A stretch of DNA of 64,000 nt, taken from Ruminococcus sp. (lineage in GTDB: Bacteria > Bacillota > Clostridia > Oscillospirales > Ruminococcaceae). This document shows, piece by piece, positions 49,974 to 62,537 of this stretch. Both the position numbers and the translations under genes were made by a program. The first letter of the stretch is position 1. Every line of letters begins with the position of its first letter. The notes under the pieces are model-generated. The model saw only the letters and a list, made by a program, of their open reading frames with translations. It did not search any database and had not been told where the DNA came from. The DNA lies in contig SVNX01000001.1 of assembly GCA_015066665.1 (NCBI GenBank), forward strand, positions 62,001-126,000. Direction: 5' to 3'.

Positions 49974-50051
49974 GGGGAATCCTCCTTTCATCGGCCGGCC
50001 GGAGCCGGCTTGTCACGAAATGCCCCACCGGTGGTGGGGCAATCTGTGGAA

Positions 50052-50498
50052 TTATGCTTCTGTGACAGCAACCTTGATCATTGCAGAGATGCCGTTGTAC
50101 AGGCGCACCTCGGCATCGAATGTACCAAAGCTCTTGATCTCCTGCTTGAGGGCGATCTTCTTCTTGTCGATCTTGCAGCCGTACTGCTCAGCGAGGAACT
50201 GTGCCACCTGGCTTGCAGTTACCGAGCCGAAGAGACGGCCGCCGGTACCGGCCTTGCAGGTGATGCGGACAATCTGGCCCTCGATCTTGGCCTTGATTTC
50301 CTGTGCATTCTGACGCTCCACATCGATCTTGTGCTGTGCGGAGGACTGCTGACCCTTGAGGTGGTTGATGTTCTCGGGGGTAGCTTCTACGGCCAGCTTC
50401 TTGGGCAGGAGCATGTTGCGTGCGTAGCCGTCAGCAACCTCCTTCATCTCACCCTTCTTGCCGGAGCCTTTGACATCCTGTAAAAAAATAACCTTCAT
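50052..50498 (-). CDS. rplI: 50S ribosomal protein L9
   Basis: 148 residues, with the N-terminal [30 protein letters not shown] signature (rRNA-binding domain), a long connecting helix and the C-terminal domain ([14 protein letters not shown]). The start is the inner ATG after GAAAGGACGAGAGAT. It lies between gdpP and dnaB, the usual Firmicute order. A GCCCCACC/GGTGGGGC hairpin in the rplI-dnaB gap (50020-50042) may adjust expression of the distal genes. Confidence 0.96.
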
Positions 50499-50537
50499 AT
50501 CTCTCGTCCTTTCCATGCCGCAGTGAGCGGCGTTTTG

Positions 50538-52481
50538 TTATGCCTCCGAGAGGACGCCGACCAGACGGTCGCGGGCTTCCTTCGGGGAAATATCGGGAAT
50601 CTGTGTGGCGGCCATGGTCTGATGTCCGCCGCCGCCGAGGGCTTCCATGATCACCTGCACATTGACCGCACCGAGCGACCGTGCAGAAATGGAGATCGAG
50701 TGGCCGATCTCGTAGATCACAAAGGCCGCATCCACATTCTGGATGCTCAGCAGCTCATCCGCTGCCTGCGGTGCCACAAGACGCACCTCGGGCACATCGG
50801 CCGGTGCAATGGCAATGGCGTGGCGTCCGACGATCTCCGCCGACCCGACGATGTCCGTGCGGGAGCGGTAGGCCTCGATGGAGCCGGAGAACAGCCCCTT
50901 GACCTTGACGGTATCCGCACCGATCTTGCGCAGATAGGCGGCCGCTTCAAATGTACGCACACCGGTGCGCATGACAAAATTCTTGGTATCGAGCATGATG
51001 CCCGAGAGCAGACAATCCGCATAACAGCTGTCGATGGTCTTGTTCATCTTGAAGTACTGAATCAGCTCGGTGACCATCTCGCAGGCGGAAGAGGCGTAGG
51101 GCTCGTGGTGGAAAACCACGGCATTGTCCACATAATTGACGTTTTTGCGGTGATGGTCGATGACCACCACATGCGAGGCGGCTTCATAGAGCCGTTCGCT
51201 CTCGAGAATGTCCTTGTTGTGGGTGTCCACAATGATCAGCAGACTGCGGCTGGTGATGGTGGAAATGGCATCCTCGGGGGTCATGAAGAGGCTGTCGCCG
51301 ATGGTTTCCCGCATCTGTGCAATCAGCTGCGGTGCAAGGTTCTTCTTGGGATCGACCACAACGGAAACGGGCACGCCCATGAGCTTGACCGCACCTGCCA
51401 GACCGCAGGCGGAGCCGATTGAATCGAGGTCGCCGAAGCGATGCCCCATGATATAGACATTGCTGCTGGCAAGAATCATATCCTGCAGTGCGCAGGCAAT
51501 GACACGGGTCTTGGCACGGGATTTCTTTTCAACACCCTTGGACACGCCGCCGAAGAAGCGGAAGCCGCTGTCGGTCTTGACCGCCGCCTGATCGCCGCCG
51601 CGGCCGAGTGCCATATCCAGGCTCTGTGCCGCAAAGGCCTCGCTTTCCTGAAGGGTGGCGGCACCATGACCGACACCGATGGAGAAGGTGACGGTGTTCT
51701 TGTCATCCACACGGATCTGGCGGGCGTCATCGAGGATCTTGAACTTCTCATTGATCATCTGCTGGAGATGCTGCTCCTCAATCACCGCAAGGAAGCGGTC
51801 GTTCTTCATGCGGCGCAGCACACCGTTTGTCTGCGAGATGAAGTCCTCAAGCAGCTTTTCGACAGCCATGCTGGTTTCCAGACGTGTGCTGTCCTTTGTA
51901 TTCTGGAGAAGATCGTCAAAGCTGTCCACCATGATGAGCAGCACACAGGGACGGGTTGCCGCATATTCCTGCTCAAGGGTACGCAGATCGGTCATATCCG
52001 ACCAGATATAGGCCGTCAGATCGGTATCCGTGTCGGTGTCATGGTAGGGTATGGCGGAAATCAGGTAGTACCGTTCCTGCCAGATGATCTCCTGCTCGGG
52101 GAGCGACGGGTCGAAATCGAGCAGTGTGAAGAGATTTCTGCCGAAGCAGTCCGACCCCTTCACAATGCGGTTCAGAAAATAGGCATTGTGATGGATCAGG
52201 ATGCCGTCTTCATCCAGCACACAAAGTCCCAGCGGCATCTTCTGCATGGCCTCCAGCCGGCTGCGCTCGCAGGTGTCATTGAGCTGTGCCACATAGCGGA
52301 TGTGGTGCTTGTGAGCATAGAACATCTGCACGCCGATGAGCACGGTGAACAGCACCGCCGGCAGAATACAGAGCACGCAGTGCGCAATGCCGTGGCGGTA
52401 CATCACAATGGATGGCAGTGCGATGGACAGAATCAGCAGCAGAATCAGAATCCAGAGCGACCAGTGATGTCGTGGCTTCAC
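50538..52481 (-). CDS. gdpP: c-di-AMP phosphodiesterase GdpP
   Basis: GdpP degrades the essential second messenger c-di-AMP. The 647-residue protein has two N-terminal helices (9-28, 34-55), a PAS-like domain (MPLGLCVLDEDGILIHHN), a degenerate GGDEF domain without the GGDEF core, a DHH phosphoesterase domain (GHRFGDLDSIGSACG, VIVDTHN, VIDHHRKN) and a DHHA1 domain (GGGGHQTMAATQI). All metal motifs are present. The start codon is GTG after AAGGAGGTGACGGG. It precedes rplI by 39 bases. Confidence 0.95.
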   Translation of the reverse strand: MKPRHHWSLWILILLLILSIALPSIVMYRHGIAHCVLCILPAVLFTVLIGVQMFYAHKHHIRYVAQLNDTCERSRLEAMQKMPLGLCVLDEDGILIHHNAYFLNRIVKGSDCFGRNLFTLLDFDPSLPEQEIIWQERYYLISAIPYHDTDTDTDLTAYIWSDMTDLRTLEQEYAATRPCVLLIMVDSFDDLLQNTKDSTRLETSMAVEKLLEDFISQTNGVLRRMKNDRFLAVIEEQHLQQMINEKFKILDDARQIRVDDKNTVTFSIGVGHGAATLQESEAFAAQSLDMALGRGGDQAAVKTDSGFRFFGGVSKGVEKKSRAKTRVIACALQDMILASSNVYIMGHRFGDLDSIGSACGLAGAVKLMGVPVSVVVDPKKNLAPQLIAQMRETIGDSLFMTPEDAISTITSRSLLIIVDTHNKDILESERLYEAASHVVVIDHHRKNVNYVDNAVVFHHEPYASSACEMVTELIQYFKMNKTIDSCYADCLLSGIMLDTKNFVMRTGVRTFEAAAYLRKIGADTVKVKGLFSGSIEAYRSRTDIVGSAEIVGRHAIAIAPADVPEVRLVAPQAADELLSIQNVDAAFVIYEIGHSISISARSLGAVNVQVIMEALGGGGHQTMAATQIPDISPKEARDRLVGVLSEA

Positions 52482-52518
52482 CCCGTCACCTCCTTATTTT
52501 TCAACTTTATGCAGCACC

Positions 52519-54390
52519 TCAGATTTCCATGATGATCGGGAGAATCATGGGGCTGCGCTTGGTTTTCGCATAGATATAATCGGACAGTGCATCACGCAGC
52601 TTGCCCTTGAGGGAAGTCCATTCCTTCAGCTCATACGAAGAGCATTCTGCAAGTGTATGGCAGAGCAGCTGTCTTGCCTCGACCATCAGTTCCTCGGCCT
52701 CACGCACATAGACAAAGCCGCGGGAGATGATATCGGGTCCGGAAATCACGGAATTTGTGGACTTTTCGATGCCGACCACGATGATGATCAGGCCATCCTC
52801 CGCCAGATGCTTTCTGTCACGCAGGACGATGGAGCCGACATCGCCGACGCCCAGACCATCCACCAGTACTCTGCCGGCGGGCACCTGGGAGACGATACGC
52901 ATGGAGGCACCGTCGGTTTCGATCACATTGCCGATGGAGGCAAGGATGATGTTTTCCTTCGGGATGCCCATTTCCACGCCGAGGTTGGCGTTCTTGACCA
53001 TGTGCTTGTATTCGCCGTGCACGGGGAAGAAGTACTTCGGGCGGGTCAGCGCCAGCAGGAGCTTCAGCTCTTCCTGACAGGCGTGGCCGGATACATGCAC
53101 TTCGTACATGGACTCATAGATGACCTCGGCACCGGACTTCATCAGCTCATTGACCACACGGGTCACATGCTTCTCGTTGCCGGGGATGGGCGTAGCGGAG
53201 ATGATGATGAAGTCAAGGGGTGTGATGTTCACCTTCTTGTGGTCATGCATGGCCATGCGGGTGAGTGCGGACATCGGCTCGCCCTGGCTGCCGGTGGTGA
53301 TCAGAACGATCTGCTCCGGCGGATACTGGTTCATGTTTTCAATATCGATGATGATGTTCTTCGGGACTTCCAGATAGCCAAGCTCCAGTGCGGTGGAGAT
53401 GACATTGATCATGCTCCGGCCGAGCACGGCCACCTTTCTGCCGTATTTTGCAGCCATGTTGATGATCTGCTGGACACGGTGGATGTTCGAAGAGAAGGTT
53501 GCAATGATGATGCGGCGCTGTCCGGCCTTGGTGAAGAGCTTTTCAAAGGACTCGCCGACCTTGCGTTCGGACTGGGTATAGCCGGGACGTTCGGCATTGG
53601 TGGAGTCGGCCATGAGGGCGAGAACGCCGCGGCTGCCAAGCTCAGCAAAGCGGGCAAGGTCGATCGGGCCGCCGTCGATGGGAGAATAATCCACCTTGAA
53701 GTCGCCCGTGTGGACGAGGACGCCTGCGGGGGTATGAACGGCCATGCCCATGGCACCGGGGATGGAGTGGTTCACCTTGATGAATTCCACAGCCATGCAG
53801 CCCATCTTGATGGTCTTGCGGGACTCGATGACATTGAGGGAGACCTTGTTGAGAAGGCCGTGCTCCTCGAGCTTATGCTTGATCAGGCCGATGGTCATGC
53901 CGGAGCCGTAAACGGGAGCATTGACCTTCTTGAGCAGATAGGCCAGACCGCCGATGTGATCCTCGTGACCATGGGTGATGACGATGCCGCGGAGCTTGTC
54001 CATATTGCGCTCCACATAGGTGAAATCGGGGATGACGATGTCAACACCGGGCATTTCGGAATCGGGGAAGGCAAGGCCGCAGTCGAGGATGAACATATCG
54101 TTGCAGCACTCGAAAACGGTCATATTCTTGCCGATTTCATTCAGACCGCCGAGCGGAATGATGCGTACGGGTGTGCGATGCTCACGGCGCTTCTGATTCT
54201 GTGCCGGCTGCTTCTGTACGGACGCTGCCTGTGCAGCCTGCTGGGGCAGATTCTGGTTCTGCTGGGGCTTGTTCTGACCGCTGTTCTTTCTTGCGCCGGC
54301 GCCCATTTTCTGGGCATGATTCTTGGAAGAGCGCACAGTAAAGCGCTTTCTTCTCTGGTTGTGATTGCTGTTATTGTTGTTTGCGTTCAA
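52519..54390 (-). CDS. Ribonuclease J
   Basis: RNase J combines endonuclease and 5'-3' exonuclease action in mRNA decay and rRNA processing. The MBL/beta-CASP core starts near residue 75 (VRIIPLGGLNEIGKNM) and has the metal motif THGHEDHIGGLAYL, GDFKVDYSP, the beta-CASP segment FSSNIHRVQQ, and SGHACQEELKLLL followed by FPVHGEYKH. The first 70 residues are Asn/Gln-rich and basic, an extension found in many clostridial homologues and possibly RNA-binding. I set the start at the TTG 7 bases after GAGG; an upstream ATG 14 codons earlier (MESVSAC) has no ribosome site. Confidence 0.94.
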   Translation of the reverse strand: MNANNNNSNHNQRRKRFTVRSSKNHAQKMGAGARKNSGQNKPQQNQNLPQQAAQAASVQKQPAQNQKRREHRTPVRIIPLGGLNEIGKNMTVFECCNDMFILDCGLAFPDSEMPGVDIVIPDFTYVERNMDKLRGIVITHGHEDHIGGLAYLLKKVNAPVYGSGMTIGLIKHKLEEHGLLNKVSLNVIESRKTIKMGCMAVEFIKVNHSIPGAMGMAVHTPAGVLVHTGDFKVDYSPIDGGPIDLARFAELGSRGVLALMADSTNAERPGYTQSERKVGESFEKLFTKAGQRRIIIATFSSNIHRVQQIINMAAKYGRKVAVLGRSMINVISTALELGYLEVPKNIIIDIENMNQYPPEQIVLITTGSQGEPMSALTRMAMHDHKKVNITPLDFIIISATPIPGNEKHVTRVVNELMKSGAEVIYESMYEVHVSGHACQEELKLLLALTRPKYFFPVHGEYKHMVKNANLGVEMGIPKENIILASIGNVIETDGASMRIVSQVPAGRVLVDGLGVGDVGSIVLRDRKHLAEDGLIIIVVGIEKSTNSVISGPDIISRGFVYVREAEELMVEARQLLCHTLAECSSYELKEWTSLKGKLRDALSDYIYAKTKRSPMILPIIMEI

Positions 54391-54764
54391 ACGAATACCT
54401 CTTTTCTGGGGGCACGCAGATACTGATTCCATGGGAATGTTGACCGTTCTCACAAATACAGAAAAATCCGTTCGGTGAACGAGAACGGGTCCGTCGGATG
54501 CAGGGTACAAAAACAGGGTCCATATCTGTGTCGGGATACAGTGATGCTGTTGTTCAGGCAGAGCTGCAGATGCGGAAAACCGCAGAAAACGGACGGAGCA
54601 GGGGTGAGTTGGAAGCAGATATTTGCTCTGTGGAAGCTGCGCATCGGAGCGGCAGCACGGATAAGTAAGGGAAACGAAGCCGTCGTTTCCGAATATTTAA
54701 AGGCACGCATGCCAGAAAATCATGAACCGTCACCTCGTGCACATGCACGAGGCCATCATCAGAT
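54391..54764 (-). promoter_or_regulatory. Long 5' leader of the RNase J operon
   Basis: About 375 transcribed bases lie between the promoter and the RNase J start without a credible gene. A perfect CCTCGTGCA-CA-TGCACGAGG hairpin (54732-54751) is placed near the 5' end of the predicted transcript. Such leaders can allow feedback by the nuclease on its own mRNA; that is inference. Confidence 0.55.
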
Positions 54765-54770
54765 ACTACA

Positions 54771-54799
54771 ATTATAAAGGAAATTCCGACTTTTGTCAA
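54771..54799 (-). promoter_or_regulatory. Promoter of the rnj-gdpP-rplI-dnaB-tilS-ftsH operon
   Basis: On the minus strand TTGACA-N17-TATAAT, full consensus. No terminator or other clear promoter lies between here and the ftsH terminator, and gaps between genes are at most 78 bases. Confidence 0.88.
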
Positions 54800-54893
54800 G
54801 TATGCAGCAAAGAACGTGCACACAATTGGTCAGAATGGATAAAAACCGGATACAATCTCATTTTTATTATGCATTTTGACGCTAAGCACGCCG

Positions 54894-56705
54894 TCAGGCG
54901 GAAGGGGCTTCGGGCGTGCCGAGCTTCTGTTCCCAAAAGCCGCAAAGCTCCTGTGCCGCTTCCATTGAATCGGCATGCACACGGAGCTGTACAAGGCGGC
55001 TGTGCAGCGGCATTGCAATGTGCACGGCAGGGTCGGGATTCTCGCGGATGCAGTTTTCCACATGCGAGCGGCCTTTTGGGGAAAGCAGCGTCCGTTCAAG
55101 GGTATACAGCGGCGGCAGCAGTGCGGCAGCCGTTCCGGCGGAGATGTGCCTTTCTGAAAGAATCCGCAGAAAATGGGCGAAAAGCTGGATGCCGTCACCG
55201 ATCGCCCCTTCCCTGCGCAGGATCCGGCCGCCATGGCGTGCGGCAAAGGCTTCGGCGGCGGGATGGAAGGCATCGGGCAGCACCAGCGGCTTGCCCTGCG
55301 TCTTCAGGGAGAGCAGGCTCAGCAGCCGGAGCGCATCGGGGCGGATGAGGCCGCATTCTGTGGAAAATACGCTCGCCGATGCGCCGTCCTCGGAAAGTCC
55401 CAGCACAAGCCTTGCGCCCTTTCCGCCGGAAAGCAGGCGTTCTGCCGTTTCCCGCAGTGCTGCATTGCCGCAGCTGACTGCGATTTCGTAATCCGTTTCG
55501 GGGAGGAGTTGCCGGATATCCGCTTCCCAGAGATGATGAAGTCCCCGACCGTCCGTGCGTTTTCCACAGAAAACGGGCCGTGCCGAGCAGCGGCTCCCGA
55601 GTGTACGGGTGAGGGCGGCCGCATGTGCCTGTGTGAGAGGACGGCCATCGGCTTCAAACGGCCGCAGAAGGGGCGTGCTGCCGCCCTGCACCCAGAGCAT
55701 CACGCCGCAGTGCGCACGGAGGGAAGCCGCTGCCATCTGTGGAAGACTGCACACGCCCATATCCCAGACTTCTGCCCCCTGACAGACTGCGCCCGCTGCG
55801 GCCGCATCGGCAAGGGGGCGGGCATCCGGTGTGCTGCAGCCGATGGCGATCCGCTCGGAGAGTGCTGTCATTGCACAGCCCGCCTGCAATGCCGTTTCGG
55901 GCGAATGCCACCTCGGCAGACCACGGCAGATGCCGTCCTCACTGTGGTACTGCATACGGGGGTTGACGGGCGTTTGTCCCGCCGGCGGGACGATGGCGCC
56001 CTCTTCAATGACGGCATCTTCAAGCTCGGCTTCCCTGTCCACAAGGGCATGCCGGCAGATGACGCAGCGGCGGAGTCTGCATCCTGCCCCGATCTGCACG
56101 CCGTCCCCGATCACGCAGTCCGTGAGTTCTGCGTGATCCCCGATGCGGCAGTCATGCCCGATGATGGTGCGGGCATCGATCGTGACGTTCCGCCCCATCT
56201 CCACGCCCTCGCCGATTCGGTGCGGATCCGGCCTGTCCATCTGCATCAGACGATATTCTGTGGGATTTTGCGGCATGGCAAAGCCCGACTGCACTGTAAT
56301 AACTGCGGCTGGCGGCACATCGGGGCGCAGTCCCGCAGGCCACAGCTCGGCCGCAGGATCCGTGCCGTCCGTCCGCCGCAGACGCAGCGGTTCGCTGCCG
56401 CAGAGAGCGCAAAGCTCCCCCGCATCCCAGTCCGGCAGACACAGCCGCCGCAGGACGAGCGTGGGCGCATCACAGACGGGGAGCCGCGCTTCGTATCGAA
56501 GCTGCATACGCAGATTGAGGGCATCGGCACAATGCCGCACGCTGTCATCCGCATCAATGAGAATGGTCTCCGTACAGCCGCACTCTGAAAGAAATCGCAG
56601 AAGATGGACAATAAGCGGCGTGCATCCGATGGGCAGCAGCGCCTCGGGGAGGTCACGGACGGGCAGGCAGCGGACGGGTGCACCGCAGCAGAGAATGGCT
56701 TTCAT
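54894..56705 (-). CDS. Nucleotidyltransferase-hexapeptide-phosphomutase-like fusion
   Basis: 603 residues in three parts, as in fused mannose-1-phosphate guanylyltransferase/phosphomannomutase-like proteins. Residues 1-110 resemble an NTP-transferase start (MKAILCCGAPVRCLPVRDLP, PLIVHLLRFL), but the usual GGxGTRL loop is reduced. Residues 165-245 are left-handed beta-helix hexapeptides (VTIDARTIIGHDCRIGDHAEL). Residues 265-600 look like a phosphohexomutase, but the TASHNP serine loop is replaced by GVMLWVQGGSTPLL. Both activities may therefore be lost. The start follows GGAAAGGAAGTTTGCC. Confidence 0.72.
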   Translation of the reverse strand: MKAILCCGAPVRCLPVRDLPEALLPIGCTPLIVHLLRFLSECGCTETILIDADDSVRHCADALNLRMQLRYEARLPVCDAPTLVLRRLCLPDWDAGELCALCGSEPLRLRRTDGTDPAAELWPAGLRPDVPPAAVITVQSGFAMPQNPTEYRLMQMDRPDPHRIGEGVEMGRNVTIDARTIIGHDCRIGDHAELTDCVIGDGVQIGAGCRLRRCVICRHALVDREAELEDAVIEEGAIVPPAGQTPVNPRMQYHSEDGICRGLPRWHSPETALQAGCAMTALSERIAIGCSTPDARPLADAAAAGAVCQGAEVWDMGVCSLPQMAAASLRAHCGVMLWVQGGSTPLLRPFEADGRPLTQAHAAALTRTLGSRCSARPVFCGKRTDGRGLHHLWEADIRQLLPETDYEIAVSCGNAALRETAERLLSGGKGARLVLGLSEDGASASVFSTECGLIRPDALRLLSLLSLKTQGKPLVLPDAFHPAAEAFAARHGGRILRREGAIGDGIQLFAHFLRILSERHISAGTAAALLPPLYTLERTLLSPKGRSHVENCIRENPDPAVHIAMPLHSRLVQLRVHADSMEAAQELCGFWEQKLGTPEAPSA

Positions 56706-56753
56706 GGCAAACTTCCTTTCCCGATGGTCTTTGCGGGAAGTATGGACGGTTTG

Positions 56754-58049
56754 TCAGGATTTATGCAAAAGCCGCCGAAGCACGGGCACAAGAAGCAGAA
56801 GGGCGGGCAGATGACACCAGGCCATGCAGGCGTTGGCGATGTCCGCAAGCAGCCAGACCGTATCGAGCCGCAGTACTGCCCCCGCTGCCGCCGCCAGACA
56901 GAAGACGATTTGGAAGAGCCGGCATCCCCGTCCCTTCGTCAGATAGGAAAATGCCGTACTGCCGCAGTATGACCAGCCGATCAGCGTGCACAGGGCAAAG
57001 AGTGCTGTCACGAGCGGAATGAAGCCGTCCGCACCCCGTCCCAGTCCTCGTCGGAAGGCCTCAAGCACGAGAGCGCCGCCGTCCGCACCGGTTTCCATGG
57101 CACCGGTTGCGAGGATGACGAGGGCCGTTGCCGTGCAGCAGACAAAGGTATCGAGCACGACCTCGGCCATGGCCCAGAGTGCGGGGACTTTGGGGTCACG
57201 GCAGTCGGTTTCGCCATGGAGCAGGCCGCTGCTGCCGAGTCCTGCTTCGTTTGAGAAGACGCCCCGCCGCACGCCCACGGAAAACGCATGCCGTACTGCG
57301 GCACCGCTGATGCCTCCGCCAAGGGCGGACAGCCCGAAGGCCTCCTCAAAAATCTGCCTGCATACTGCGGGCAGAGCAGTGCGGAAACGCCAGAGGACAA
57401 TGCCCGATGCGATCAGATAGGCAAGGGAAAGCACGGGAATCAGGGCTTCTGTGACTTTGCCGATGCGGCTGACACCGCCGAGGATGACCGCACCCGTCAG
57501 TCCCGCTGCAAGAATGCCCGTGAGCAGGGGCGGCATCCTGAATGCGGCATGCAGGGTGGCGGCCATGGTGTTGCTCTGGGTCATATTGCCCATACCGAAG
57601 GCGGCGGCCGTGCAGCACAGCGCAAAAAGCCACGCAAGCCATGGGGCATGCAATCCGTCATGCAGGCAGGCGATGGCACCGGTGCGCAGGGTCCCGTCCG
57701 GCTGACGGCTGCGAAAGTGCGTGCCGAGGCGGTTTTCCGCATAGAGCAGAGCCATGCCGATGAGGGCGGCGACCCACATCCAGAAGAGTGCGCCTGCGCC
57801 GCCCAGTGTCAGTGCGGTGGCGACGCCTGCAATGTTGCCCGTTCCCATGGCGGCAGCGAGCGAGGTGGTGCAGGCCTGCAGCGGCGAGAGGGCATGGGCA
57901 CGGCCCTCATTCCGGCGGAAAAGCTGCGGGATGCGGGCCGGCACACGCCATACCCCCGCAAACAGGCAGAGCAGCCCCGTCCCGAGCAGGAGCACAAGCA
58001 GTGCATCGCCCCAGACGATGGCATTGACATCGGAAAGGATGCGGTTCAT
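56754..58049 (-). CDS. Sodium:alanine symporter family (AGCS) transporter
   Basis: 431 residues with about eleven membrane helices. The AGCS hallmark region reads ACTTSLAAAMGTGNIAGVATAL, and FSNEAGLGSSGLLHG and IGWSYCGSTAF are also typical. It imports alanine or glycine with sodium. The start is the ATG after GAAAGGAGTCCTCT (MNRILSDVNAIVWG); the ORF-track extension is in the repeat array. A 48-base gap joins it to the following fusion gene on the same strand. Confidence 0.92.
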   Translation of the reverse strand: MNRILSDVNAIVWGDALLVLLLGTGLLCLFAGVWRVPARIPQLFRRNEGRAHALSPLQACTTSLAAAMGTGNIAGVATALTLGGAGALFWMWVAALIGMALLYAENRLGTHFRSRQPDGTLRTGAIACLHDGLHAPWLAWLFALCCTAAAFGMGNMTQSNTMAATLHAAFRMPPLLTGILAAGLTGAVILGGVSRIGKVTEALIPVLSLAYLIASGIVLWRFRTALPAVCRQIFEEAFGLSALGGGISGAAVRHAFSVGVRRGVFSNEAGLGSSGLLHGETDCRDPKVPALWAMAEVVLDTFVCCTATALVILATGAMETGADGGALVLEAFRRGLGRGADGFIPLVTALFALCTLIGWSYCGSTAFSYLTKGRGCRLFQIVFCLAAAAGAVLRLDTVWLLADIANACMAWCHLPALLLLVPVLRRLLHKS

Positions 58050-58086
58050 AGAGGACTCCTTTCGGTGTGGGCAGGATCCGGAGCAG

Positions 58087-58700
58087 TACCGCCCGTCAGC
58101 CAGATTTTTTGTCAGTGTCAAGGCCTTGGGCGGGGTGCCGGGGCCGCCAGGCCCCGGCCTTTCCCCCCTCCCTCTGGGAGGGGGTCAGGGGGTGGGCAGT
58201 CCGGCGGGAAACCCATCATCATGGTCAGGGCTTTGCCTTGAATCGTACCGCCCGTCAGCCAGATTTTTTGTCAGTGTCAAGGCCTTGCCTTGGGCGGGGT
58301 ACCGGGGCCGCCAGGCCCCGGCCTTTCCCCCCTCCCTCTGGGAGGGGGTCAGGAGGCGGCAGTCCGGCGGGAAGCCCATCATCATGGTCAGGGCTTTGCC
58401 TTGAATCGTACCGCCCGTCAGCCAGATTTTTTGTCAGTGTCAAGGCCTTGGGCGGGGTGCCGGGGCCGCCAGGCCTCGGCCTTTTCCCCCCTCCCTCTGG
58501 GAGGGGATCAGGAGGCGGCAGTTCGGCGGGAAGCCCATCATCATGGTCAGGGCTTTGCCTTGAATCGTACCGCCCGTCAGCCGGATTTTTTTTTCAGTGT
58601 CAAGGCCTTGGGCGGGGTGTCGGGGCCGCCAGGCCCCGGCCTTTCCCCCCTCCCTCTGGGAGGGGGTCAGGGGGTGGGCAGTCCGGCGGGAAACCCCCTC
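58087..58700. repeat. ~160-bp tandem array, 4 copies
   Basis: Copies start near 58087, 58246, 58409 and 58568 (spacing 159, 163, 159). Each holds TACCGCCCGTCAGCCAGATTT, GGGCGGGGTGCCGGGGCCGCC, CCCTCCCTCTGGGAGGGGGTCAGG and a CATCATCATGGTCAGGG phrase. The internal CCCTCCC/GGGAGGG segment reads as the GC-rich element in reverse orientation (GCCCACCCCCTGACCCCC on the minus strand). The array fills most of the gap between the divergent AGCS and PH-domain genes. Confidence 0.92.
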
Positions 58701-58730
58701 TTGCATTTTTCATAGCCTTTATGCTATAAT
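58701..58730 (+). promoter_or_regulatory. Promoter of the PH-domain genes
   Basis: TTGCAT and TATAAT with 18-bp spacing directly after the repeat array. GACGTCC-TGC-GGGACG, a small hairpin, lies in the leader. Confidence 0.75.
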
Positions 58731-58785
58731 ATGGATAGGCTGAAAAAAATAGACGTCCTGCGGGACGGAAGGAAGGTGCACCGGT

Positions 58786-59232
58786 ATGAAGACCTATTAC
58801 GCCGATCTGCAGGCGATGCAGCTGATACAGTTTATTTCAATGCTCACGGGCGGATTGCTTGCGCTTGCGGCAGGTCTTACGCTCTATCGCTGGCCGGTCG
58901 TGATGTGGTGCGCCGCCGGTATCTGCGGCGGGGCTGCACTGCTCTTCAGTCTGCTCTTTCTTCCGCTCTGGTTCCGGCAGTTCTCCTGCATCGTCACATC
59001 GTCCCAGATCACACGCCGTACCGGCATTTTCTTCCGGCGGGAACAGTCCGTGCGGCTGCAGACCATTCAGTTTGTGCAGATCGTTACAGGGCCGTTCGAT
59101 GGACGCTGCGGCATGAATTTCATCCTGCTGCATGTCTATGGCGGCCGCATGCTCCTGCCCTGCCTGCGGCAGGAGGACAGAATTGCACTCACTGAGTACC
59201 TCCGTGCAAAGGGGGTCTACCATGCACCATGA
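58786..59232 (+). CDS. Small bacterial PH-domain membrane protein (YdbS-like)
   Basis: 148 residues: two adjacent membrane helices (about 14-32 and 36-58), then a bPH2-type domain (QITRRTGIFFRREQSVRLQTIQFVQIV, RMLLPCLRQED). The start follows GGAAGGAAGGTGCACCGGT. It overlaps the next gene by 11 bases. In Bacillus, ydbS-ydbT pairs have been linked to antimicrobial-peptide resistance; function here is unproven. Confidence 0.85.
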   Translation: MKTYYADLQAMQLIQFISMLTGGLLALAAGLTLYRWPVVMWCAAGICGGAALLFSLLFLPLWFRQFSCIVTSSQITRRTGIFFRREQSVRLQTIQFVQIVTGPFDGRCGMNFILLHVYGGRMLLPCLRQEDRIALTEYLRAKGVYHAP

Positions 59233-60664
59233 GCATCCGCTGCGCATCATCCGCTACAGCATCAAAAATATCTGGCTGCTGATTTTTCCGCTGCTGCGCG
59301 GTGTCAACAGCTTCCTCATTACCCCCGAGGCCGTGGTGGAATGGGTCAGAGGTACCTGGTTTGACCTGCTGATTCTGCTGTGCATTCTTGGCTTTGGCTT
59401 TCTGCGATGGCGTCTGCGGCGGTTCACGGTCAGGGAAAACGATCTCTATCTCGAGGACGGCATCTTCTTTCGCAGCCGATGCTATATGCCGATGGAACGG
59501 CTCTCGGCAATGACCCTCGAGACGCCCTTCTGGCTGGCACCCTTCCGAGGGGTCTATCTCTATGTCAATACCGCAGCCGGACAGTCCGATGATACCGATG
59601 TCCGCCTGCTCATCCGCCGTCAGGATGCGGCCATGTTTGAGCGTGCCGTCCCGAAAATGCGGCGCAGTGCCCAGCATTCCTGCCGGTACAGGGTGCATCC
59701 GCTCCGGATTCTTGGCTTTTCCGTCATCTTTTCAAGCAGCTTTTACGGCTCGTTCTATCTTGCGGCATTCTGGTTTCAGGGCGGCCGCATCAGCCGTGAT
59801 CTGATCGAAGAATTCCGGCTCAATGAACGCCTGACGCAGGCATCCGAGGAGCTGGCACACCGGCTCTCCGGCATTCCGCCCGCAGCAGTGGCGGTGGGTA
59901 TTGTGGTCGTGTGCATGTGGCTGCTCTCGCTTTTTGCGAATCTCATGCGCTATGGTGCGTTCTATATGCGTACGGATAAGAAGCTTGTCTATATCCGCAG
60001 CGGCCTGCTGATGCGGCGGCGGCATTTTCTGCAGACCGACCGCATCAACTACCTCGACATCCGCCAGAATCTGCTGACCAAGCTCTTCTGCCTGTTTGCA
60101 CTGGCGGTGAATTGCCCCGGCTACGGCAATACGAGGGGGAGCATTCCCGTCTGTCTGCCGCTTCTGACACGGCGTGAGCTGGAGGAGACGCTGCCGCTGC
60201 TCTTCCCCGGCGTGCGGATGCAGAAGAATCATCTCCGGCCGGCATGGACGGCACTTTGGGGCTATATCTGGCTGCCCGTGCTGATGGCGGCGGCGATTCT
60301 GCCGGCGGCATGGATGGCAAGGCAGCTGCTTCCGGCGTGGGAAGAGGTGATTGACTTCTTCCGGATCATGCTGCTGATTCCGATCTGCTGGAAGCTGCTG
60401 GTGCAGATCCTCTCGCTCCTGACGAGCGGTGCAAGCATGGAGGATGGCTGCCTCTGTCTGCGGATGTGCCGGGGTCTTGTATTCCATACGATTCTGGCGG
60501 GGACGGAGCGTGTGGTAAAGGTGCGCATCCGGCGGAATCCCTGGCACCGGATTTTCGGCAAATGCCATGTGGATTTCTATCTCCGCTCGGAAGTACGGCG
60601 GCGTTATGCTTTGCGGAATGTGGATTATGAGACCGCATGTGCCATGCTGGAAGCGTATCTGTGA
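59222..60664 (+). CDS. Multi-PH-domain membrane protein (YdbT-like)
   Basis: 480 residues from the ATG in the overlap with the preceding gene. Pairs of membrane helices alternate with bPH2 domains: helices near 15-65, then ENDLYLEDGIFFRSRCYMPMERLSAMTLETP; helices near 165-245, then RTDKKLVYIRSGLLMRRRHFLQTDRINYLDIRQNLLTKLF; helices near 345-405, then a third domain with GLVFHTILAGTERVVKVRIRRNPWHRIFG. The usual YdbS/YdbT pairing supports a joint membrane complex. Confidence 0.87.
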   Translation: MHHEHPLRIIRYSIKNIWLLIFPLLRGVNSFLITPEAVVEWVRGTWFDLLILLCILGFGFLRWRLRRFTVRENDLYLEDGIFFRSRCYMPMERLSAMTLETPFWLAPFRGVYLYVNTAAGQSDDTDVRLLIRRQDAAMFERAVPKMRRSAQHSCRYRVHPLRILGFSVIFSSSFYGSFYLAAFWFQGGRISRDLIEEFRLNERLTQASEELAHRLSGIPPAAVAVGIVVVCMWLLSLFANLMRYGAFYMRTDKKLVYIRSGLLMRRRHFLQTDRINYLDIRQNLLTKLFCLFALAVNCPGYGNTRGSIPVCLPLLTRRELEETLPLLFPGVRMQKNHLRPAWTALWGYIWLPVLMAAAILPAAWMARQLLPAWEEVIDFFRIMLLIPICWKLLVQILSLLTSGASMEDGCLCLRMCRGLVFHTILAGTERVVKVRIRRNPWHRIFGKCHVDFYLRSEVRRRYALRNVDYETACAMLEAYL

Positions 60665-61075
60665 GGAAAAACGCCCTTTTGGTGCGACACCTTCAATAGC
60701 CCTCCTGCGGAGTGCTTTTTGACAGACGAAAAACCCCTGCCATAAGGCGGGGGTTCAGCTTGTCAAAAAAGTATGATTTCGCTTAATTTTGCCCCACCCC
60801 CTACCCCCTCCCCAAAGGGGAGGGGGAAAGAGGGAGGGTGCTGCCGCACCCTCAACCCGCCCTCTTGCAGAGTGCTTTTTTGCTATTTATTGAGGGTTAT
60901 AGGGGGCACAGCCCCCTATATGCGCCGAATGCCCTAAGCTGAGGGAGGATGCTGTACGAAGCGATGGGTATGTCGACATTGGATGTGAGTCGGCAGGCGC
61001 AACGAAACTAAAAATACGAGTCCAGCCCTGCGCCGTTCAGGTGCAGTGGCTGGACGGGACTTTTTCGACAGACTG
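60665..61075. other. Repeat-rich intergenic region, possible small RNA
   Basis: Holds a hairpin AACCCCTGCC-ATAA-GGCGGGGGTT nested in TTTTTGACA/TGTCAAAAA (60712-60776), a GC-rich element (60793-60870, CCCCTCCCC-AAA-GGGGAGGGG), ATAGGGGGC-ACA-GCCCCCTAT (60900-60920), and GTCCAGCC...GGCTGGAC followed by GGGACTTTTT (61020-61060). The last could terminate a small + strand RNA. No ORF is credible. Confidence 0.6.
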
Positions 61076-61101
61076 AAACCCCTGCCATAAGGCAGGGGTT
61101 T
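61076..61101 (-). terminator. Terminator of glnA
   Basis: AAACCCCTGCC-ATAA-GGCAGGGGTTT, nearly the same as the hairpin at 60740. Confidence 0.85.
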
Positions 61102-61112
61102 TCACATTGATC

Positions 61113-62537
61113 TTACAGATTATAATAGCGGTCAAATTCAGCAGGATGCGGAATGGCAGCCAGTTCACGGCATTCAGCACGCTTTGTGCGGATGAAGTTG
61201 TTGATCAGCGCCTCGGGGAAGACGCCGCCGGCCATCAGATAGTCATGATCGGCTTCGAGGGCATCGAGTGCCTGCTCGAGAGAGGTCGGCAGGTGTGTGA
61301 GCTTTGCCTTCTCCTCATCGCTCAGATGGAAGAGATTCATATCATACGGACCCCAGCCGTTTGCATGCGGGTCGATCTGGTTCTTGATGCCGTCCAGACC
61401 GGCCATCAGAATGGCCGCATAGCAGAAGTACGGATTGCAGGTCGCATCGGGGTTTCTCAGCTCGAAACGTCTGCGGTCGGGTGTCTTTGCATAGGCCGGA
61501 ATGCGGATGACCGCACTGCGGTTGGAGGTTGCATAGCCAACAGTAACCGGAGCCTCAAAGCCCGGAACCAGTCTCTTGAACGAGTTTGTGCTGGGATTTG
61601 TGATGGCACACAGGGAATTGATGTGCTTTAAGAGACCGCCCATGAAGTAGTGGGCTTCCTTGCTCAGGTGTGCATAGCCCTCGTCATCGGAGAATACGGG
61701 CTGGCCGTCCTTCAGCAGGAGCATGTGTACATGCATGCCGTTGCCGGCCTCACCCATCACGGGCTTGGGCATCAGGGTGGCGGACTTGCCGTACTTCTTT
61801 GCCACATTGTGGATGATGTACTTGATGGTCATGGTCGCATCCGCCATCTTGGACATCTCACCCAGCTTCGGCTCGATCTCATACTGACCGGCTGCACCGA
61901 CCTCGGGATGATGATAGTTGATGCCGATGCCGGCTTCTTCCATCAGCAGGCACATTTCACTTCTGGCTTCATAGGATACATCAAAGGGCTTGGCAGCGTG
62001 ATAATTCTTCTGCTTCGGGACAACGCAGCCGGTGCCCTCTACAGCGGAATTCCAGTGTGCCTGATTGGCATCCACAGAATAGCCAACGCCGCTTGCGCCG
62101 ACTTCCCAGCCCACATTGTCAAAGAGATAGAACTCAAACTCAGGGAGGATCAGCATGGTATCCGCCACGCCGCAGTCCTTCATGTACTGCTCTGCCGCAG
62201 CAACAATGTTTCTCGGATACTGTGCCAGCGGACGATTCTCGGGATAATCGATGATCATTGCATTGCCGACCATGGAAAGTGTCGGGATCTCACAGAACGG
62301 GTCAATGGCCGCACTGTCAGGATCGGGGATGAAAACCATGTCGCTCTTCTCAACAACGGCATAGCCATAGTTCGAAGCATCGAAGCCGATGCCGTTTTTC
62401 ATGACATCTTCGCTGAAATCTTTTGCGGGAATGGTCACATGACGGAACTGGCCATTGATGTCCACCATCTTGAAGTCCACCATCTTGATGTCCTTTTCGC
62501 GGATCAGTTCCATAATCTTTTGTACTTTTTCGTTCAT
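61113..62537 (-). CDS. glnA: Glutamine synthetase, type I
   Basis: Condenses ammonia and glutamate with ATP to glutamine. The 474-residue length fits the type I (bacterial) class. Visible motifs are DPFCEIPTLSMVGNAM, LPEFEFYLFDNV with metal-binding Glu, GEAGNGMHVHMLL, NRSAVIRIPAYAKTPDRRRFELRNPD and, near the C-terminus, INNFIRTKRAE. The start follows CAAAGGAGAATGACCA. It is a single gene with its own promoter and terminator. Confidence 0.96.
   Translation of the reverse strand: MNEKVQKIMELIREKDIKMVDFKMVDINGQFRHVTIPAKDFSEDVMKNGIGFDASNYGYAVVEKSDMVFIPDPDSAAIDPFCEIPTLSMVGNAMIIDYPENRPLAQYPRNIVAAAEQYMKDCGVADTMLILPEFEFYLFDNVGWEVGASGVGYSVDANQAHWNSAVEGTGCVVPKQKNYHAAKPFDVSYEARSEMCLLMEEAGIGINYHHPEVGAAGQYEIEPKLGEMSKMADATMTIKYIIHNVAKKYGKSATLMPKPVMGEAGNGMHVHMLLLKDGQPVFSDDEGYAHLSKEAHYFMGGLLKHINSLCAITNPSTNSFKRLVPGFEAPVTVGYATSNRSAVIRIPAYAKTPDRRRFELRNPDATCNPYFCYAAILMAGLDGIKNQIDPHANGWGPYDMNLFHLSDEEKAKLTHLPTSLEQALDALEADHDYLMAGGVFPEALINNFIRTKRAECRELAAIPHPAEFDRYYNL

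Follow-up and report, generated by a model that had tools for sequence, protein, structure and literature searches.

The gamma and epsilon subunits of eIF2B, a eukaryotic exchange factor, place a nucleotidyltransferase (NT) domain before a left-handed beta-helix (LbH, or hexapeptide) domain in a non-enzymatic role, and they have no mutase domain. Neither does GMPPA, which combines a dead NT domain with an LbH domain. GMPPA is a non-catalytic feedback inhibitor of GMPPB that still binds GDP-mannose (PMC11228364). Active alpha-D-phosphohexomutases (hereafter mutases) are defined by four loops, for phosphoserine, metal, sugar and phosphate (PMC6443537). One of them, GlmM, also docks on CdaA, blocks its oligomerisation and inhibits c-di-AMP synthesis, with acidic contacts in GlmM domain 2 binding Arg126 of CdaA (PMC8573169). 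Our literature search found no paper on the pseudo-mutase described below or on the dead half of its fusion with NT and LbH domains. A cyanobacterial protein, sll1558, named once or twice in each of five papers, is presumably a relative of this fusion. Here, we describe such a fusion from a Ruminococcus sp. genome, encoded in a stretch of 64,000 nucleotides (the window), in which the catalytic motifs of both enzymes are gone. The best explanation, to which we give a probability of about 70%, is a selectively maintained double pseudoenzyme that works by binding, with the pseudo-mutase as a regulatory or scaffold module.

Domain structure and lost motifs

The open reading frame is uninterrupted from an ATG start, and the full-length gene with a strong ribosome site described in the sequence-only reading is as stated (Table 1). 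The order NT, hexapeptide, phosphohexomutase proposed there is also borne out, by Pfam, by alignment with relatives and by the AlphaFold/Foldseek fold. In Pfam only the LbH hexapeptide repeats clear the threshold (PF00132, 39.9 bits for a cut-off of 27; hexapeptide/LbH_EIF2B match at residues ~164-239). PGM_PMM_I on residues 294-337 stays under its cut-off (18.3 versus 22.5 bits), and the sole trace of the NT part is a sub-threshold NTP_transf_3 match (E 0.059). Around the locus (50000-62000), Rfam found no riboswitch or other known RNA.

Table 1 Features of the locus in window positions, and loci of the stand-alone form in the family
Feature	Position	Strand	Description or evidence
Putative double pseudoenzyme ORF	54894..56705	minus	603 aa: NT-like, LbH, pseudo-phosphohexomutase
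Ribosome-binding site GGAAAGGAAG	56712..56721	minus	6 nt before the pseudoenzyme ATG; read from the sequence
Degenerate, shortened NT-like domain, residues 1-158	56232..56705	minus	Alignment with intact relatives; purifying selection
Former NTP-binding signature loop, now CCGAPVRCLPVRDLPE	56643..56690	minus	Comparison with AGGxGxRLRPLTxxxPK
LbH domain, about residues 159-245	55971..56231	minus	Pfam LbH_EIF2B / Hexapep; model pLDDT 37-61
Pseudo-phosphohexomutase region, residues 252-598	54912..55952	minus	Predicted four-domain fold; pLDDT mostly 85-95; Foldseek GlmM/PMM
WVQGGSTP at phosphoserine-loop site, residues 338-345	55671..55694	minus	Replaces (T/S)ASHNP
SEDGAS at metal-binding-loop site	55377..55394	minus	Replaces DGDADR
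Stretch with MPLHSRL at phosphate-binding-loop site	54981..55019	minus	Replaces RPSGTEP
AgcS-type Na+:alanine symporter	56754..58121	minus	TIGR00835, E 1.5e-110; real start probably about 58049
Sigma-70 promoter TTGACA-17-TATAAT	54771..54799	minus	Pseudoenzyme-rnj gap; 12/12 consensus positions
RNase J (rnj)	52519..54510	minus	Pfam; conserved downstream neighbour by synteny
GdpP-like c-di-AMP phosphodiesterase	50538..52481	minus	Pfam; conserved downstream neighbour by synteny
Stand-alone pseudo-mutase loci			L128, L129, L130, L131, L147, L148, L149, L151, L160, L166

Comparison of a predicted structure with active homologues, which the sequence-only reading had called for, recovers the mutase fold. 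In the AlphaFold model (pLDDT 78.8), confidence is high for the pseudo-mutase and for most of the NT remnant, and low for the LbH domain. Its best Foldseek matches are GlmM and PMM/PGM enzymes (E 1.5e-14), with the CdaA-bound form of GlmM among the top ones. The window protein is thus predicted to retain the four-domain fold of the GlmM/PMM-PGM superfamily, from which it differs in lacking all four loops, in being shorter and in having only 14% identity to the GlmM of its family. By sequence, the best PDB matches are the gamma and epsilon subunits of eIF2B, mainly through the LbH repeat (E 7e-10).

The mutase loops were compared against true GlmM proteins of related genomes. At the phosphoserine loop, WVQGGSTP in the window protein stands for the ISASHNP of active mutases from its own bacterial family, as the earlier reading had noticed from the absence of TASHNP. 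The metal loop with its three Asp (DGDxDR; DGDADR in the relatives) has become SEDGAS, the sugar-binding loop GEQSGH with its Glu and Ser is deleted, and the phosphate-binding loop RPSGTEP reads MPLHSRL. The possibility of an active mutase with shifted motifs was rejected, as no alternative motif was found in the protein. Alignment with intact relatives likewise confirms the reduced NTP-binding loop, with CCGAPVRCLPVRDLPE in place of the signature. The metal-binding Asp motif SGD is replaced by RRLC (LRRLCLPDWD), the distal segment YWxDIG is shortened and unrecognisable, and about 80 aa that relatives have are missing from the distal half of the NT part. Given these changes, the window protein probably has no enzymatic activity.

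Conservation in the genus

Among the 38 genus genomes, 29 have a full-length orthologue with 40-50% identity and no stops, as do 11 of the 12 good-quality ones, the genomes surveyed being mostly metagenome assemblies. Because of these orthologues, and because the AlphaFold model matches GlmM/PMM, the reading frame is not a chance one. The sequence-only reading had held that intact relatives beside a single broken copy would mean simple decay. This is not what is seen: the 23 genus orthologues read in detail are all equally motif-less (23/23). Whole-gene dN/dS is 0.05-0.17, taken from close genus pairs with dS saturated in distant ones, and is similarly low in the NT remnant, the LbH domain and the pseudo-mutase. 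The rnj and gdpP genes of the same pairs give 0.03-0.19, with the pseudoenzyme somewhat above rnj in most pairs. Across the 23 sequences, 68 residues are invariant, scattered through all domains.

Catalytic residues gone under purifying selection is the pattern of a maintained pseudoenzyme. A dying gene that is open by chance is very improbable: its motifs are lost, and one genus genome (G163) gave a match in three separate segments, but the genus-wide conservation without stops, the low dN/dS and the invariant residues in every domain all speak against it, and decay is rejected at the level of the genus.

Some of the conserved residues lie where catalytic ones used to be. Cys7 (23/23), Cys13 (21/23) and Cys89 (22/23) occupy former NTP or metal residue sites, and a Cys at the first Ala of AGG is also found in most NT-degenerate forms (L079, L134, L136, L138, L139 and L152). 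They would suit a new enzyme, either with the NT cleft rebuilt as a catalytic or metal site or with the mutase cleft turned to another sugar-phosphate reaction. We regard this as improbable, given that Cys13 and Cys89 are each missing from some members, that stand-alone forms do without the NT part and that no known catalytic constellation was recognised. A three-cysteine metal site had seemed invariant in 13 sequences and is kept as a lead only, with Cys13 and Cys89 lost in some of the 23. In 22/23 genus sequences Glu21 has taken the place of the PK-motif Lys.

A canonical GlmM scores above the cut-off in 28 of the 38 genus genomes, so no replacement for a missing GlmM is needed and that role was rejected. 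With the window protein as a single query, named genomes gave no match; a profile of the genus members did match them, mostly in gut metagenome assemblies of Ruminococcus, Oscillospiraceae or Clostridia, many from herbivores, so that the window probably comes from an uncultured Ruminococcus relative of the herbivore gut.

Relatives in the family and phylum

At family level, 59 of 149 sampled genomes match, some weak LbH-only matches being counted in, and in the phylum an NT-LbH-PGM fusion of 780-860 aa is common. The phylum-wide fusions share the domain order of the window protein, are homologous along its length and show the same mutase-loop loss. They keep an intact NT domain, and most of them lie near alpha-glucan genes, in contrast to the window genus, whose NT domain is dead and short and whose gene lies upstream of rnj-gdpP. 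Their nearest NCBIfam model, mannose-1-phosphate guanylyltransferase NF052502, stays below its cut-off. The only models to which such fusions score are catalytic NT, GlmU-like and GlmM-like ones, and annotation would call them enzymes, whereas in the entire phylum set read the mutase half has no catalytic loops.

All fusions read come from within the phylum, and none, from family to phylum, has the mutase loops, even where the NT signature is perfect. Because the motifs are missing in every one of them, the loss of the mutase motifs is ancient and predates the family. The pseudoenzyme fusion of the sequence-only reading stands, but the loop loss as a change of the present gene does not. In a PGM_PMM_I control on 71 phylum genomes, the strong matches listed (at least 111 bits) contained no fusion-sized frame; they were ordinary-mutase frames with one 1037-aa fused exception. 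This exception (L242:719-3832) joins a ManC-type NT to a phosphohexomutase in a different architecture, with its motifs intact, TASHNP included.

The loss of the NT domain appears younger and repeated several times within the family. Outside the genus, 46 family loci divide into 25 with an intact NT domain, 9 with a degenerate one, 10 that lack both it and the LbH domain, and 2 that are unscorable. The ten NT-absent loci encode a stand-alone pseudo-mutase of 355-417 aa (Table 1); at L166 two adjacent ORFs divide the fusion between them. When NT presence and loss are placed on a tree of the pseudo-mutase region, at least six changes are needed, a number that is approximate as many inner branches are weakly supported, and that assumes that NT domains were not swapped by recombination. 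Grouping all NT-lost forms in one clade is rejected (p-AU about 1e-105). The stand-alone form L011, whose gene is also that of L128, matches nothing in Pfam, yet its model (pLDDT 86.9) shows the phosphohexomutase fold in full (Foldseek E 3.5e-22). Because stand-alone forms persist and this one models as a complete fold, the four-domain pseudo-mutase is the constant part of the family. As a separate observation, an N-terminal part of the fusion (324-aa ORF) and a cysteine-desulfurase-like neighbour occur twice in one family genome (L083:7542-14835).

Outside the family, 12 of the 19 fusion loci read adjoin a gene for a GT4/5 glycogen-synthase-like protein or a GH57 branching-enzyme fusion, four of these genes being confirmed by Pfam and the others recognised by their start motif. 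Such neighbours suggest that the fusion arose in the metabolism of alpha-glucans or NDP-sugars. The window genome itself has a GlgC-like gene adjoining a second NT gene, presumably glgD. Together with the GH57 and GT4/5 neighbours, this could fit a GMPPA- or GlgD-like regulatory subunit whose dead NT half pairs with an active NT such as GlgC and senses its product, much as GMPPA, like our protein a dead NT with an LbH domain and a probable regulatory role, acts on GMPPB (PMC11228364). We find such a pairing unlikely: the family can do without the NT half but keeps the pseudo-mutase, the NT remnant is short by about 80 aa, and the gene does not adjoin glg genes in the family. GMPPA also differs in that it binds GDP-mannose (PMC11228364); the NT part of the window protein is truncated, and in relatives it is gone altogether.

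Proposed role

A binding role of the double pseudoenzyme is most likely because the catalytic loops of two enzymes are lost and the protein is conserved all the same. The window gene would be the positional orthologue of the phylum-wide fusion of NT, LbH and pseudo-mutase. The four catalytic loops would all have disappeared from its mutase half by the time the family emerged, and its NT half would then have lost NTP and metal binding in the genus and, separately, in other lineages. The functional unit retained throughout would be the four-domain pseudo-mutase, most likely as a regulatory or scaffold module that may recognise a sugar-phosphate-like ligand or a partner protein, while the LbH domain and the remnant NT parts may serve assembly. 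A sensor or scaffold, as put forward in the sequence-only reading, is thus a candidate role. The family would in this way record how an enzyme turned step by step into a non-enzyme, with intermediates in which the NT domain is intact, dead or gone at one locus, and these make the reason for keeping a pseudo-phosphohexomutase directly testable.

Genomic neighbourhood

Family-wide, the gene lies upstream of rnj-gdpP-rplI-dnaB-tilS in most loci, whatever the state of its NT domain; in the window, too, the rplI (L9) and dnaB genes lie downstream with rnj and gdpP. The rnj gene follows in 21/25 NT-intact, 8/9 NT-degenerate and 7/10 NT-absent loci, and gdpP was found at 22/23 genus loci, several of the rnj and gdpP misses being contig ends or ORF-picking artefacts. 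The gap between pseudoenzyme and rnj is usually 120-650 bp, and in the window it holds a perfect promoter (Table 1), so that rnj need not depend on the pseudoenzyme transcript. An operon of the two genes is weakened by this promoter, and pseudoenzyme-rnj-gdpP stands as a stable gene order, not as a proven operon.

Genes in the order gdpP-rplI-dnaB are commonly found together in Firmicutes as a housekeeping neighbourhood. The position of the pseudoenzyme gene two places upstream of gdpP in most family loci suggests, together with the precedent of GlmM and CdaA (PMC8573169), a link to c-di-AMP. As a specific form of the binding reading, the pseudo-mutase would dock on CdaA, as GlmM does, or on GdpP, and block or tune the enzyme. 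The GlmM-like fold of the window model, with the CdaA-bound form among its top matches, favours this. Against it stand the housekeeping nature of the neighbourhood, the long gap before rnj in most loci and rnj's own promoter here, the low sequence identity to GlmM, an alignment in which the placement of the CdaA contacts of GlmM is not reliable, and the fusions read outside the family, which are not near gdpP; on balance we think it unlikely. For the binding reading as a whole, it is a weakness that the nearest genes, rnj-gdpP in the family and alpha-glucan genes in the phylum, point to no one partner. We hold it slightly less likely still that pseudo-mutases repeatedly freed from the NT fusion became a regulator tied to the rnj-gdpP locus, one that answers to cell-wall or glycan precursor sugars by controlling c-di-AMP turnover or RNA decay. 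If the neighbouring c-di-AMP or RNase J genes were indeed regulated by the pseudo-mutase, sugar metabolism and signalling would be tied together in a major group of gut bacteria.

On the upstream side, the symporter gene agcS lies on the same strand 48 bp from the pseudoenzyme, and the two are probably co-transcribed in the window. The operon with an amino-acid symporter put forward in the sequence-only reading is thus plausible here, but the arrangement is common to only 9 of ~70 family loci, none of them NT-intact, and these nine sit in one part of the tree and are not independent. In several genus members the upstream place of AgcS is taken by a protein of ~180 aa whose C-terminus carries a zinc ribbon (L077:11983-12519). 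Upstream of agcS in the window, a tandem array at 58086-58696 repeats a GC-rich unit of 159 bp in 3.8 copies; pieces of it are also found at 38 further genome sites, and the ORF at 58067-58729 is just the array in translation.
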